Source: Candidatus Hydrogenedentota bacterium
GTDB lineage: Bacteria > Hydrogenedentota > Hydrogenedentia > Hydrogenedentales > SLHB01
Assembly (NCBI GenBank): GCA_019695095.1
Contig: JAIBAQ010000033.1
Location: 1 to 41,326 of the forward strand
Reading direction: 5' to 3'
Length of the DNA: 41,326 nucleotides
Shown: positions 4,532 to 40,260 of the stretch, piece by piece
Position numbering within the stretch: position 1 is the first letter of the stretch
Layout: each line of letters opens with the position of its first letter
The notes under the pieces: generated by a model
What the model saw: the letters and a program-made list of their open reading frames with translations, nothing else
What the model was told of the DNA's origin: nothing
Database searches by the model: none
Translations under genes and position numbers: made by a program

Positions 4532-4695
4532 GCAATTCGCACCGGCGCTAATTGCTCACGTGCAAGACTTTGAGGTTATGCCATGAGGATTCCTCACGAG
4601 CACACTCTGTCTGTGGATATCCGCTCTGTTCTTTGCTGCAAGACTCTCATTTCCACTGGTTACAGAATATGTTCACGTGTGTTCGTGAGAAATCC
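4532..4695 (+). repeat. Bipartite palindromic repeat, copy A (shortened first palindrome)
   Basis: Copy A of an intergenic repeat with four copies in this window. The first part (4532-4555) is a 24-bp version of a palindrome that is 40 bp in the other copies. A 31-nt spacer follows (4556-4586) containing CACGTGCAA and GAGGTTATGCCATGA, shared almost exactly with copies B and C. The second part (4587-4695, 109 bp) has inverted ends: GGATTCCTCACGAGCACAC at its left, and at its right a sequence whose complement begins GGATTTCTCACGAACACAC. It lies between two divergently transcribed genes. Confidence 0.85.
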
Positions 4696-20731: not shown

Positions 20732-20900
20732 GATTTCTCACGAACATCTCCCGCAACCCGCGCGTCCGCGAGACTTGTGGTGAAAAACAAAGCGGTTCTC
20801 CCAAAGCAGAGTGTGTTCGCGAGAAATCCTCATGACATAACCTCAACGTTTTGCACGTGAGCAATTTGCGTCGGCGCTCAATCGCGCCAGTGCAAATTGC
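20732..20900 (-). repeat. Bipartite palindromic repeat, copy B
   Basis: Full copy in minus orientation. Read on that strand: 40-bp palindrome (20861-20900, GCAATTTG...AAATTGC), a 31-nt spacer with CACGTGCAA and GAGGTTATGTCATGA (20830-20860), then a 98-bp unit with ends GGATTTCTCGCGAACACAC and, inverted, GATTTCTCACGAACA. The centre shares CAAGTCTCGC with copy C. Confidence 0.85.
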
Positions 20901-35101: not shown

Positions 35102-35281
35102 GCAATTTGCTCCGGCGCATTTGGGCGCCGGCGTAAATTGCCTACGTGCAATACCTCGAGGTTATGCCATGAGGATTTCTCACGAACACACTCTGTTTAC
35201 AGAGAGTTGCCTCCTTATTCGCCGCAAGTTTCGCAAATGCAACTGCTACGAAAGAGTCTCCAGTGTGTTCGTGAGAAATCC
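35102..35281 (+). repeat. Bipartite palindromic repeat, copy C (most complete)
   Basis: First palindrome 35102-35141 (40 bp; 15 of 17 positions pair, 6-base centre), a 31-nt spacer 35142-35172 with TACGTGCAA and GAGGTTATGCCATGA, and a second part 35173-35281 (109 bp). Its inverted ends, GGATTTCTCACGAACACACT at the left and CAGTGTGTTCGTGAGAAATCC at the right, match at 19-20 positions. It lies between two divergent genes, like copy A. Confidence 0.9.
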
Positions 35282-35421: not shown

Positions 35422-35451
35422 TTGCCCCCAACCCTCGGCAGCCGCTACAAT
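35422..35451 (+). promoter_or_regulatory. Probable promoter of the J-like gene
   Basis: TTGCCC (35422-35427), an 18-base spacer and TACAAT (35446-35451), 35 bases before the start codon. It lies outside repeat copy C. The bases between 35282 and 35421 hold no other feature I can name. Confidence 0.55.
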
Positions 35452-35486: not shown

Positions 35487-36071
35487 ATGGCAGACAAACC
35501 TGGTTATGTGAACTACTTCGAGGTCCTCGAATTGCCGGAAGACGCGAAGCCGGGCGAGGTGCGCAAGAACTACAAGCGCAAGATGAAGGACCTGTTGTTC
35601 GAGATCGGCGGCGTGGAGATTACGGAAGAGAAACGCGCTCGTTATCTTCTCGAAATGGCGAAGCTAAATGCCGCGTTGTGCGTATTGCGCGAAAACGACG
35701 TGCGCGATGAGTATTGGAGCGCGCGAAACGATCTCATGGCGTTGGAGGATCGGTGGGCGGGCGCCGTCGCCGAGAAAGCTCCGAATGCGGAAGACCTCCG
35801 GAAAGAGTATGACACGAAGATCCGCGATTTCCTCGCCAAGTACGTCGAAGAATTGATGCTCGCGGCGGGCCGCGACAAGGAATGCGTGGAGGCGAGTCAG
35901 TGGGACTCCAACCACGAACGCCACGCCTCTCGAATCTTGAGGCATTACCGCCATGTGCTATACCACCAGATTCTGGAGCGTCTACCCTTTACAGAGGTGA
36001 CACCGCCCCATGTCGATTGGACGGAGCGCGGTAAGTTCGTTAAATCGGTCTTGGCAGGGGAGGTGCGCTAA
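35487..36071 (+). CDS. J-domain-like protein lacking HPD, function unknown
   Basis: Cytoplasmic protein of 194 residues with AGAGGTG upstream of its ATG. Residues 8-80 read like a degenerate DnaJ J-domain: NYFEVLELPEDAKPGEVRKNY, a basic helix, then LEMAKLNAALCVLRENDVRDEYWSAR, which matches J-domain helices I, II, III and IV. The HPD loop that activates Hsp70 is absent; LLFEIGGVEITEEK stands in its place, so it cannot be a normal Hsp70 cofactor. The rest is helical and not recognised. The next gene starts 2 bases after its stop and probably works with it. Confidence 0.7.
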   Translation: MADKPGYVNYFEVLELPEDAKPGEVRKNYKRKMKDLLFEIGGVEITEEKRARYLLEMAKLNAALCVLRENDVRDEYWSARNDLMALEDRWAGAVAEKAPNAEDLRKEYDTKIRDFLAKYVEELMLAAGRDKECVEASQWDSNHERHASRILRHYRHVLYHQILERLPFTEVTPPHVDWTERGKFVKSVLAGEVR

Positions 36072-36073
36072 TC

Positions 36074-37186
36074 GTGGGACTGTTTCGTAAGAAAGCCGTA
36101 ACCGCTCATAAGGTGGTTGACTACGAAAAGCTGGCGAAGGCCTTGGCAAAGGCCGTTTACGACGGCGATATCGTGAACTTTCGCCTGCTGTTCCTGCCAT
36201 TCTCGCCCGCGCGCGAGGAATCGAGTGAGCGGTTCGAGTCCGAGAAGTACGCCTATCTTCTTCCGGATGCGGACACGGAAGGAACGCGCGCGTTCAGGGA
36301 CGTGCTTGCGCTCGTCAAGCAGGACAAGATCTGGAGTCATATCCTGAGCGAACTCAAGGCTAACCGGCCCGCGCAGATGCCGTGGGAGTTGATTCTCGCG
36401 CTGGGCGACAATGCCGTCCGCACGGGAAAGTACACCAGCGCCGCGCAATGCTACGAGATGTTGCGTGTCCGGCCGAAGCTCCAAGAAGAGTTCTTTGTCC
36501 AGGCAGACGAGTCTCTTGAAGCAGGCAAGATCGACAAGGCCGTGTCCGGCTACGTCGTCGCAACCGGGCTCGAGTACAACTACGCGGCTTTCCCCGAACC
36601 CCTGCCAATGGTATTGAACTTCCAAACGCATGCGCTGATGCTCCACGGAGTTTATCCGGAGAAACCCGAAGACTGCGTCGCGTTGCAGGAACCCGAGTCG
36701 TTTGTCCGGACTGCGCTGACATACTTGCTGGGCGACAGCAGGGCGGCCGCCAGGCTGGAAGGCCGGCCGCTCAACACACGGCTGGCGTTCCTGGAGCAGC
36801 TTGTTCGCTACCGCGACCCAAACTGGCCGGACTTCGTTCATCGCTATCGCGAAGCCTGTAAGAAAATGACCGAATTCGACAAGCGCATTTCTCAGGCGAA
36901 GTCTGAAGCGGGACGGGGTGCGAGTCTTGCAGATGAGATTGCGGAACTTCTGGGTGACGACCCGAGTACAATTCCCGCGATGCTCCTGGGCCGCAGTATT
37001 CCGTCCGGGGAATGGTGGCAGTACATAAAAGAGTTAGCTTTTGTGCACCCGCCGTCCGTGTTGTTTGTGTCCCGGCAGCTTATCGGCCCCAAAGAGATTG
37101 TTGTTCCCCGGTACCGCGGCGATTCCCCGGTACCGCGGACGCTGGGTCTGCTGGCCGGTCCGGATGGGAAACCGACTCTGTCCTAA
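36074..37186 (+). CDS. Protein of unknown function with a central helical-repeat (TPR-like) part
   Basis: Protein of 370 residues starting at a GTG with GGGGAGG inside the end of the preceding gene. I do not recognise its family. No signal peptide or membrane segment is seen. Residues ~105-180 have TPR-like spacing (ELILALGDNAVRTGKYTSAAQCYEMLRVRP and QADESLEAGKIDKAVSGYVVATGL), and the end is a basic/coil region followed by a Pro/Gly-rich tail. Its near overlap with the J-like gene suggests a shared role, possibly as a protein-protein scaffold (inference). Confidence 0.72.
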   Translation: MGLFRKKAVTAHKVVDYEKLAKALAKAVYDGDIVNFRLLFLPFSPAREESSERFESEKYAYLLPDADTEGTRAFRDVLALVKQDKIWSHILSELKANRPAQMPWELILALGDNAVRTGKYTSAAQCYEMLRVRPKLQEEFFVQADESLEAGKIDKAVSGYVVATGLEYNYAAFPEPLPMVLNFQTHALMLHGVYPEKPEDCVALQEPESFVRTALTYLLGDSRAAARLEGRPLNTRLAFLEQLVRYRDPNWPDFVHRYREACKKMTEFDKRISQAKSEAGRGASLADEIAELLGDDPSTIPAMLLGRSIPSGEWWQYIKELAFVHPPSVLFVSRQLIGPKEIVVPRYRGDSPVPRTLGLLAGPDGKPTLS

Positions 37187-37215: not shown

Positions 37216-37842
37216 TTGGCGCTGCTCATAGACCTGCACCTCCACACGAGCCGCTATTCCCGTTGCAGCGTCATTCCGCCCGAACGGCTAATCGACCAGG
37301 CCGTAAATGCCGGCTTGGATGGGGCCGTAATCACCGAGCATCATGTACAATGGAGCTTGGACGAGTTGGAAGAACTGCGAAAAGCATCCAGCCATCCGGG
37401 ATTTCTGTTGCTGGCGGGATTCGAGTACACGTCCCGCAAGGGAGATCTGCTCATTTATGGCGTGGATGCCCAGGAGGTAAGCCGGTTCGAGCCGTGCTGG
37501 CCACCGGAGCAGGCCGTAGCGCTGGCAACCGAACTGGGTGGCGTGTGCATCGCGGCGCATCCGACGCGGGCCGGACTTGGTTTCGACACGGGTATCGCCC
37601 AATTGCAGTTGGCGGCACTTGAGGTGCGTAGCGTAAACCTGCAACCGCATGAGCAACGGATGGCGGTGAAATTGGCGGAAGCCATTGGAGCGAGACAAGT
37701 TGCGTGCAGCGACGCACACACCATCCAGGATGTCGGGCGTTTTGCGACCGAATTTGATATGGTTATACGGGACATAACGGATTTGCGTACTGCGTTGACG
37801 CATGGTAGATTTCGAGTGGCGGAACATCGCGTGTCCGCATAA
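37216..37842 (+). CDS. PHP-domain metal-dependent phosphoesterase
   Basis: Protein of 208 residues, near the usual size for small PHP phosphoesterases. The metal ligands are visible in DLHLHTSRYS (His8, His10), VITEHH, GFEYTSRKGD, CIAAHPTRAG and CSDAHT. Members hydrolyse phosphate esters such as nucleoside or sugar phosphates; the exact substrate cannot be read from sequence. It starts at a TTG at 37216 with GGAG about 11 bases upstream. It sits 29 bases after the unknown gene and 14 before the first signal peptidase. Confidence 0.88.
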   Translation: MALLIDLHLHTSRYSRCSVIPPERLIDQAVNAGLDGAVITEHHVQWSLDELEELRKASSHPGFLLLAGFEYTSRKGDLLIYGVDAQEVSRFEPCWPPEQAVALATELGGVCIAAHPTRAGLGFDTGIAQLQLAALEVRSVNLQPHEQRMAVKLAEAIGARQVACSDAHTIQDVGRFATEFDMVIRDITDLRTALTHGRFRVAEHRVSA

Positions 37843-37856
37843 AGGATGGAATCAGC

Positions 37857-38534
37857 GTGAGTGCAAGCGACCCTAGGGACGGGGCTGCTGCTCCGGTTCA
37901 GCCGCAACAGACGGCATCTCAGGAAGTGAAACGCGAGGTCGTCGAATTCGTCAAGACGGTCGCGTGGTTTTTGCTTCTCTTTTTTCTTCTCAAGAGCTAT
38001 GTGATTGAAGGCTATGAAGTGCAAGGGCCTTCCATGGAACCTACGCTCATCAATCAAGAACGAATCCTCGTCTTGAAGTTTCCGCATTGGTTGAGTCAGA
38101 AGAGTTGGTTCAGCGGAATCGATGCGATCAAGCCCGGTGATATCGTCGTGTTCGACAGCACCGATGAGGCGCACAAGCGGTATGTGAAACGTGTAGTAGC
38201 CGAAGGCCCGAAATACGACGTCGGCAACACGGTCATCGCAAGCAAGGAAGGGGACAGCCCTGGCGAGACTGTGCCCGTCCAAATCAAGACAGGTCAGTTG
38301 TTTGTCAACAACCGGCGTGTGGATGAAACCTACCTGCCCAGAGAAATCGGCGAACCGTTTCAGTCGACCGAACGCGACGAGGTGAAGTTACGCGCTGGCG
38401 AATATTACGTTCTTGGCGATAACCGAAGAATCAGCAAAGATAGCCGTAACTTCGGGCCAATAGACGACCGGCGCGTCATCGGCAAAGCGATCCTGCGTTT
38501 TTGGCCTCTCAGCAAGTTCGGCCTCCTGAATTAG
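37857..38534 (+). CDS. lepB: Signal peptidase I (first of two tandem copies)
   Basis: Inner-membrane serine peptidase that removes signal peptides from exported proteins; 225 residues. One N-terminal membrane helix (about residues 33-47, TVAWFLLLFFLLKSY) is followed by the catalytic domain with nucleophile Ser59 (QGPSMEPTL) and general base Lys111 (RYVKRVV). Box D/E are present: GEYYVLGDNRRISKDSRNFGP and VIGKAILRFWPLSKFG. Start is GTG at 37857 with AAGGATGGA upstream. The copy at 38789 is close in sequence over the whole catalytic domain, so the pair arose by gene duplication. Confidence 0.95.
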   Translation: MSASDPRDGAAAPVQPQQTASQEVKREVVEFVKTVAWFLLLFFLLKSYVIEGYEVQGPSMEPTLINQERILVLKFPHWLSQKSWFSGIDAIKPGDIVVFDSTDEAHKRYVKRVVAEGPKYDVGNTVIASKEGDSPGETVPVQIKTGQLFVNNRRVDETYLPREIGEPFQSTERDEVKLRAGEYYVLGDNRRISKDSRNFGPIDDRRVIGKAILRFWPLSKFGLLN

Positions 38535-38788: not shown

Positions 38789-39457
38789 GTGACTCCCACT
38801 AACCCTCTGCCCGAAGCTTCCGCTCCCCATCTGCCCGCTTCTTCGGAAGCCAAGCGAGAGGCCGTGGCGTTCGTCAAGACAGTCGCCGGTTTCCTGTTGT
38901 TGTTCTTTGTGCTTAGGACCTTTGTAATCGATAGCTACGAGGTTCAGGGCGCTTCGATGGAACCAACGTTGACGAACGGTGAGAGCATCCTCGTGCTTAA
39001 GCTTCCTCATGTTTTGAGTCACAGCGGTTGGTTCGATGGAATCGAGGCACTCAAGCCCGGCGATATCGTAGTTTTCAAGAGTAAATACGATGCCGACGCG
39101 CGCTATGTGAAGCGCGTGGTCGCGAAAGGCCCCAAACTCGACGCAAGCAACACCGTCATCGCAGGAGTAAAGGGTGAGTCTTCCGGCGAGCAGGTCTCCG
39201 TGGCCATCAAGACACAACAGCTTTTCGTCAATAACCGGCTTGTCGAAGAAGACTATCTTCCGTCTGAAGTTCACGAACGATTCCTCGCAACAGACCGTGA
39301 CGAAACCAACTTGCGCGCCGGCGAATACTACGTGCTTGGCGACAATCGCTGCCCGAGCAAAGACAGTCGCAGCTTCGGTCCCGTCGACGATCAAGAAGTG
39401 ATCGGCAAAGCCATCCTGCGGTTCTGGCCGCTGAGTAAGTTCGGCGTGCTCAAGTGA
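38789..39457 (+). CDS. lepB2: Signal peptidase I (second tandem copy)
   Basis: Paralog of the preceding enzyme, 222 residues, same architecture: membrane helix (about 31-45, TVAGFLLLFFVLRTF), Ser56 (QGASMEPTL), Lys108 (RYVKRVV) and the GEYYVLGDNRCPSKDSRSFGP / ILRFWPLSKFGVLK end. Differences lie mostly in the exposed region between boxes, for example KSKYDADARY against DSTDEAHKRY, and a Pro-to-Ala change next to the catalytic Ser. Both keep all catalytic residues. The GTG start has AGGA upstream. Its stop overlaps the start of the next gene by 4 bases. Confidence 0.94.
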   Translation: MTPTNPLPEASAPHLPASSEAKREAVAFVKTVAGFLLLFFVLRTFVIDSYEVQGASMEPTLTNGESILVLKLPHVLSHSGWFDGIEALKPGDIVVFKSKYDADARYVKRVVAKGPKLDASNTVIAGVKGESSGEQVSVAIKTQQLFVNNRLVEEDYLPSEVHERFLATDRDETNLRAGEYYVLGDNRCPSKDSRSFGPVDDQEVIGKAILRFWPLSKFGVLK

Positions 39458-40260
39458 ACACGATCTTCTTCTCCGACGTTCACCTCAATGTCGCTGAGGA
39501 CGGTAGGGAACGAATGGCGCAGTTTGCGCGGTTTCTTCGCCGTATTGATCCCGCGTGCACCGAACGTGTGGTGGTTGTGGGCGATTTGTTCGACTTCTGG
39601 TTCGAGTATGAGCACGTCATCTTCTCGGGATACTTCGATGTTCTCCGCGCGTTTGCCGATCTTGCGGATGCGGGCGTCGAACTGTACTTCTGCTGTGGCA
39701 ATCACGATTTCTGGGCGGGCCGCTTCCTAAGGAACCATCTCAAGTTCTCTATTCACACCAGTCCGCTAACCCTTCAACTGGGTCCGCATCGCGTTCAATT
39801 GGTGCACGGAGATGGAATCGATCCCAAGGACCGGGGTTACCGCGTCTATAAATGGATCGCGAGGGCGCGGCCGGTGGTGTGGCTGTTCAGTCTGCTGCAT
39901 CCCGATTGGGCCATGGCGCTGGCACAGGCAGTGGCGCGCGGCAGCCGGCACATGTTCAAGGCGGACGACGTCAGCCAGGGATCGCAGGTCAGACCGCTGC
40001 AAGCCTACGCGAAGGCGACGCTTGCCAAGGGCGATGCGGACGTCGTGATGTGCGGGCACTCGCACTATCCCGTCATGGAAGAACACCCAACACCCTCAGG
40101 CGCGGGACTCTACATCAACACAGGGGATTGGCTCTTCCACCGCTCCTACGTGGAGTGGGATGGCGAACGGTTTTCGATTCGTTCATTTGAAGAAGGGGAA
40201 GGTTCCCTTGGCCCACCACGCGCCGCCCGTGAAACACAACACGCCGTAGAGCAGCACTAG
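39454..40260 (+). CDS. lpxH: LpxH-like UDP-2,3-diacylglucosamine hydrolase (metallophosphoesterase)
   Basis: Calcineurin-like phosphoesterase of 268 residues. Metal-binding motifs are SDVHLN (7-12), GDLFDFWF (43-50), GNHDFW (82-87), VHGDGID and CGHSHYP, in LpxH order. LpxH cleaves UDP-2,3-diacylglucosamine to lipid X in lipid A synthesis at the inner membrane. The FDFWFEY and HGDGID neighbourhood supports LpxH/LpxH2 over general phosphoesterases. Its start GTG overlaps the signal peptidase stop by 4 bases (GTGA). Its last 26 codons overlap the convergent PP2C gene. Confidence 0.85.
   Translation: MNTIFFSDVHLNVAEDGRERMAQFARFLRRIDPACTERVVVVGDLFDFWFEYEHVIFSGYFDVLRAFADLADAGVELYFCCGNHDFWAGRFLRNHLKFSIHTSPLTLQLGPHRVQLVHGDGIDPKDRGYRVYKWIARARPVVWLFSLLHPDWAMALAQAVARGSRHMFKADDVSQGSQVRPLQAYAKATLAKGDADVVMCGHSHYPVMEEHPTPSGAGLYINTGDWLFHRSYVEWDGERFSIRSFEEGEGSLGPPRAARETQHAVEQH

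Follow-up and report, generated by a model that had tools for sequence, protein, structure and literature searches.

Does a bacterial protein that keeps the fold of a J domain after losing the HPD motif still serve Hsp70, or has the fold been retained for another job, shared with the product of the next gene? This question is raised by two adjacent genes on the forward strand (positions 35487-37186) of a 41,326-nucleotide stretch of DNA, hereafter the window, which represents positions 1 to 41,326 of contig JAIBAQ010000033.1 in the assembly of a Candidatus Hydrogenedentota bacterium (GCA_019695095.1; 6.77 Mb in 405 contigs, 95% complete). A preliminary description of the window had reported a J-like gene followed 2 bases later by a second gene, and the coordinates and frames that it gave are right.

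Organization of the J-B locus

The first gene of the pair, ORF1 (35487..36071), starts with ATG and encodes the J protein of 194 amino acids; the second, ORF2 (36074..37186), starts with GTG 2 bases past the TAA of ORF1 and encodes a protein of 370 amino acids, here called partner protein B. Both are clearly real genes, with orthologues of each across the phylum. A likely promoter of the J-partner operon, with the sigma-70-like arrangement TTGCCC-18-TACAAT, is located at 35422..35451 on the same strand and ends 35 bases before ORF1. Its match to the consensus is no better than chance within the window alone; among the 61 J loci, 30 carry a TACAAT-type -10 box no more than 80 bases upstream of the J start, compared with a mean of 2.6 and a maximum of 7 loci in 200 mononucleotide shuffles. 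Because this box is common before the J gene, ORF1 is probably the first gene of the operon. A likely ribosome-binding site of the B gene, AGGGGAGG (36056..36063, forward strand), can be read within the last codons of J and precedes the GTG start of ORF2 by 10 bases, a position that would fit translational coupling of J and B.

On the same strand, the pair is followed by genes for a PHP-domain protein (37216-37842) and two copies of signal peptidase I (37857-38534 and 38789-39457), all assigned with Pfam/NCBIfam, and for an LpxH-like metallophosphoesterase (39454..40260), with which the downstream block ends. The last of these matches the NCBIfam model for UDP-2,3-diacylglucosamine diphosphatase at an E value of 7.7e-29 and 100.5 bits, i.e. 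under the cut-off of 134. Among the 38 loci that leave room for 3.5 kb or more downstream, signal peptidase I and LpxH-like genes occur after J-B in 24 and are absent as a block in 14, and a PHP gene is located downstream in 17. This frequent neighbourhood hints weakly at the cell envelope. The two tandem signal peptidase I genes of the window are 66% identical, and another genome (locus L099) also has two.

A predicted J fold without the HPD motif

AF2 modelling on the 61 ORF1 orthologues yielded a model with a pLDDT of 92.3, in which residues 7-86 (35505..35744) match solved J domains, e.g. 4wb7_A (Z 7.7, rmsd 1.9, 72 aligned) and 2och (Z 6.7, rmsd 1.8, 65 aligned). By themselves, Z values of this size can be frequent among helical proteins. 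The structural match is credible because J domains dominate the list of matches and the sequence profiles agree. The Pfam DnaJ model matches the window copy weakly (E 0.0037, under the curated cut-off, residues 9-34 only) and matches 50 of the 61 orthologues at E<=0.1 (best 3.5e-7); sequence searches of the PDB returned no more than weak J-domain matches, and J domains stand at the top of the PDB profile list. A Foldseek search with the model gave no PDB match at E<=0.001. ORF1 is thus confidently predicted to have a J fold, as the J-domain helix pattern in the preliminary description had suggested. The J fold is followed by a C-terminal helical region (residues 101-189; 35787..36053), delimited by conservation and by the helices of the model, in which the aligned orthologues share near-invariant charged residues, W139, and C133.

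The HPD-equivalent position was set by a gapless alignment of helix II with relatives from a second phylum, which read NPD and RPE there. It corresponds to residues 37-39 of ORF1 (LFE; 35595..35603) and lies within a lengthened helix II, which spans residues 22-42 of the model and runs through the HPD position. The segment LLFEIGGVEI, which had been noted at the expected HPD site, comprises residues 36-45 and does cover it. HPD is found in none of the 61 orthologues: the first of the three columns is mostly V, L, or I, the second is variable, and the third is E in 52 and D in 3 of the 61 sequences. By comparison, HPD is kept in all 19 other distinct J-domain proteins that were read in the window's genome and in genomes outside the phylum. 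Of the features of a functional Hsp40, ORF1 has the J fold (helices I-IV) and lacks HPD between helices II and III; its recognisable J domain with a non-conservatively replaced HPD is that of a type IV J-domain protein as defined in PMC13254874.

The conserved acidic residue at position 39 would be in keeping with an active co-chaperone whose domain stimulates an Hsp70 through other residues, and a designed J analogue without HPD stimulates Hsc70 according to a review (PMC13254874, in part). We regard this explanation as highly improbable: replacement of either H or D abolishes stimulation of Hsp70 in the systems tested (PMC8215388, in part), and the sole tolerated natural change named in the section of PMC13254874 consulted is HPE, whereas the window protein has neither H nor P at this position.

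Partner protein B

The AF2 model of B (pLDDT 92.9) is mostly helical. Neither Pfam nor NCBIfam, TPR models included, matched the window copy, and NCBIfam likewise gave no match to 21 wider members of the family. No J-domain match was found in B, either with Pfam/NCBIfam on the window copy or with family models on the orthologues. In the alignment of 54 complete orthologues, TPR_16 matches 19 sequences at E<=0.5 (best E 1.4e-4); these weak matches and the structural matches, with Z values mostly of 4-5 and 5.9 at most, delimit a TPR-like middle region (residues 102-224; 36377..36745). B thus resembles TPR proteins weakly and in its middle only, and the rest lies outside the TPR matches. This remainder includes a C-terminal part (37010..37111) that is conserved across three phylum-level lineages, carries the motif EWW.Y.KELA..HP...LFV.RQ...EI..PR, and is modelled as a helix followed by a beta-hairpin. 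The earlier designation of B as an unknown helical-repeat protein was therefore about right.

Sequence searches of the PDB gave no convincing match to B, and Foldseek gave none at E<=0.001. The structural comparisons hardly reach into the C-terminal part of ORF1 or the two termini of B, so that no new fold is claimed. The anti-phage models of PADLOC gave no match at E<=0.05 to J, B, and two B relatives. Within the searches made, B looks like a new protein family, present in three phylum-level lineages.

Conservation of the pair within the phylum

Orthologues of ORF1 (42-66% identical) and of B (38-64% identical) are spread through the phylum. J was identified in 61 and B in 63 of the 68 phylum genomes searched, and both are present in all 38 good-quality genomes (completeness of 90% or more, contamination of 5% or less). 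In the two genomes with B only (G020 and G045), the contig end cuts B on the J side, and the five genomes with neither gene are 63-90% complete. J and B lie on one contig in 60 of the 61 loci examined; in the exception (G019), they are located near the ends of two separate contigs. In all 60 loci that contain both, they are adjacent, on one strand, and in constant order, with a gap of -10 to +7 bases in 58 loci and of 70 and 83 bases in the remaining two. The pair is thus strongly conserved, and neither of the two outcomes that the preliminary description had named as refuting its proposal, a predicted structure lacking the J fold and a lack of conservation, was observed. Since the J fold is kept, HPD is lost, and the linkage to B is conserved, ORF1 is read as a type IV (HPD-less) J protein that is itself conserved and belongs with a new family of partners, most likely as a J fold that does not stimulate Hsp70 and works with B.

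J and B also stay together at the loci that lack the signal peptidase/LpxH block, and this persistence of their adjacency where downstream genes drop out counts for a functional link between the two. A mirror-tree analysis of 31 loci gave a partial r of 0.31 for J-B and 0.37 for B-LpxH, i.e. no excess for J-B over other pairs. Gene linkage is the one line of evidence that supports the 'two-component assembly' proposed earlier, on which the mirror-tree result is uninformative.

The pair and B in other phyla

Profile searches outside the phylum (386 and 385 genomes) revealed clear B relatives in two further phylum-level groups only. The second phylum, to which G091 and G376 belong, has the J-B pair in two of three genomes. 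J lies directly upstream of B there, at a distance of 4 bases in L122 and 286 bases in L123, and the neighbours are different ones, i.e. PCMT and MFS or methyltransferase genes. At the HPD position, these J proteins read RPE and NPD, and the J protein of L122 scores above the Pfam DnaJ cut-off (29.0 vs 27.8 bits). When HHalign was used to compare these two proteins with the J profile of the window's phylum, the alignment was confined to the J domain (83 columns, E 1.7e-4, probability 49) and thus does not establish homology over the full length, including the C-terminal parts; the profile search that recovered both proteins had these two rows in its profile. The A1 profile gave weak matches, again restricted to the J domain, in two outside genomes (G103 and G382).

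In the third phylum (the group of G202), B is present in seven of eight genomes, and no HPD-less J was found in this group; B can thus act without an HPD-less J. In two annotated third-phylum loci (L124, 3767-8064, and L140, 830-5348), B is located behind a uridine-kinase-like gene, a DUF4416 gene, and an Acetyltransf_2 gene, and carries a long insertion ahead of the conserved C-terminus. Four other B candidates (in G080, G006, G323, and G026) showed weak matches of short coverage within longer frames and were excluded from the counts.

These distributions bear on another explanation, namely that the J-B order reflects co-transcribed housekeeping genes with separate functions in a slowly rearranging phylum. 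In its favour, the signal peptidase and LpxH-like genes tend to accompany the pair as well, the mirror-tree does not set J-B apart, and third-phylum B occurs without J beside DUF4416 and uridine-kinase-like genes. We nevertheless consider a merely shared operon improbable, because J and B are never split in the 60 loci with both although the downstream genes are missing from 14 of 38, and because the pair recurs in the second phylum among different neighbours. The finding is in this respect stronger than the window alone could show, being phylum-wide and seen again in a second phylum.

Relationship to Hsp70

One full DnaK is encoded in the window's genome; its gene lies on contig C155, next to that of a DnaJ with HPD, and the genome also encodes a second, small J protein with HPD. 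Ordinary Hsp70 work falls to this separate dnaK-dnaJ pair, a point in favour of a different role for ORF1. A partial second Hsp70-family match lies in a 345-amino-acid frame of the same genome (G000:C14:14492-14794).

In DnaJ, the placement of the J domain on DnaK is set by R22, K26, and R27 (PMC8215388, in part). The equivalent positions are basic in 53, 61, and 54 of the 61 ORF1 orthologues, respectively, and all three are basic in 46. As these docking positions are mostly kept in the window's phylum, ORF1 may still dock DnaK without stimulating it, and the earlier statement that the pair is not linked to Hsp70 is unproven. Such docking, for which the basic residues are a real argument, is the core of an alternative modelled on the regulation of Pam18 by Pam16: the J-like domain would bind DnaK via its basic helix II without triggering ATP hydrolysis and so compete with genuine J proteins or modulate them, while B would bring it to a site or client. 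A DnaK is available for docking in the genome, and there is a precedent in yeast, where Pam16 restrains Pam18 and, itself without HPD, blocks Pam18 stimulation in vitro (PMC12953747, in part). We consider this regulator unlikely, though the least unlikely of the alternatives, because the second phylum keeps the pair although the K26 and R27 positions of its J proteins are not basic, and because the modelled helix II crosses the HPD position, so that the site meeting the DnaK linker is altered. As the pair outlasts the docking residues there, it can be argued that the task shared by J and B does not need Hsp70.

Comparison with known systems

Recognisable J domains with non-conservatively replaced HPD are also found in other type IV J-domain proteins (pseudo-JDPs: Pam16/Tim16, DnaJB13, and plant J-like proteins), some of which form stable complexes with a partner. 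Unlike these examples, which are eukaryotic, ORF1 is a bacterial protein found across a phylum; it carries a C-terminal helical region of its own, and its operon partner is no J protein. CbpA-CbpM and Thermus DnaJ2-DafA likewise tie a bacterial J protein to a dedicated partner, but both of those J domains have retained HPD and cooperate with Hsp70. Their partners CbpM and DafA are small proteins of other folds, whereas B has 370 amino acids and matched no Pfam or NCBIfam model. Work without an Hsp70 has been considered before, i.e. the J-like Pam16/Pam18 proteins of Trypanosoma are thought to act without mtHsp70 (PMC11349236, in part). A search of the openly accessible literature returned no bacterial HPD-less J protein paired with a B-like partner. 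HPD-less J proteins are already known; what looks new, as far as these searches reach, is the operon-linked pair in bacteria and the family of B.

A possible function of the J-B pair

The presence of the pair wherever both genes are visible in the phylum, together with the second-phylum pair, suggests that the altered J fold is kept for a different job. The explanation that we favour, and hold as likely to be right as wrong, is that the HPD-less J fold is made together with B as a scaffold or adaptor without an Hsp70 cycle. The Hsp70 trigger would have been lost no later than in the phylum's ancestor. J and B would be made from one operon, a step supported by the conserved order, the near-zero spacing, and the conserved promoter box. 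By binding to B, J would then most likely yield a small scaffold or adaptor in the cytosol, with one surface provided by the J fold and the C-terminal helical region of ORF1 and the other by B through its TPR-like middle and its C-terminal hairpin. The complex might hold or position a client or a larger assembly and would drive no Hsp70 ATPase cycle. Counting against this explanation are the mirror-tree result, the basic helix-II residues kept in the window's phylum, the occurrence of B without an HPD-less J in the third phylum, and the wide J-B spacing in L123.

Somewhat more doubtful is the further claim that J-B is an Hsp70-independent two-protein machine, in which selection stripped HPD from a bacterial J domain and fixed this domain, with its dedicated partner family, throughout one phylum and in a second. 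If true, it would provide bacterial evidence of HPD loss as a selected change of function, not decay. The absence of HPD throughout a phylum beside one partner, together with the intermediate-looking NPD and RPE of the second phylum, makes the question testable.

Short repeat elements in the window

Three elements of about 100-109 bases (35173-35281, 4587-4695, and about 20732-20829) share a 19-20 base inverted repeat (GGATTTCTCACGAACACAC) at their ends; their interiors are unlike. The element at 35173-35281 is located a short distance before the J gene. No match to these elements was found in 60 loci of related genomes. In the window, the element ends account for six matches against none expected, and the elements are MITE- or REP-like.
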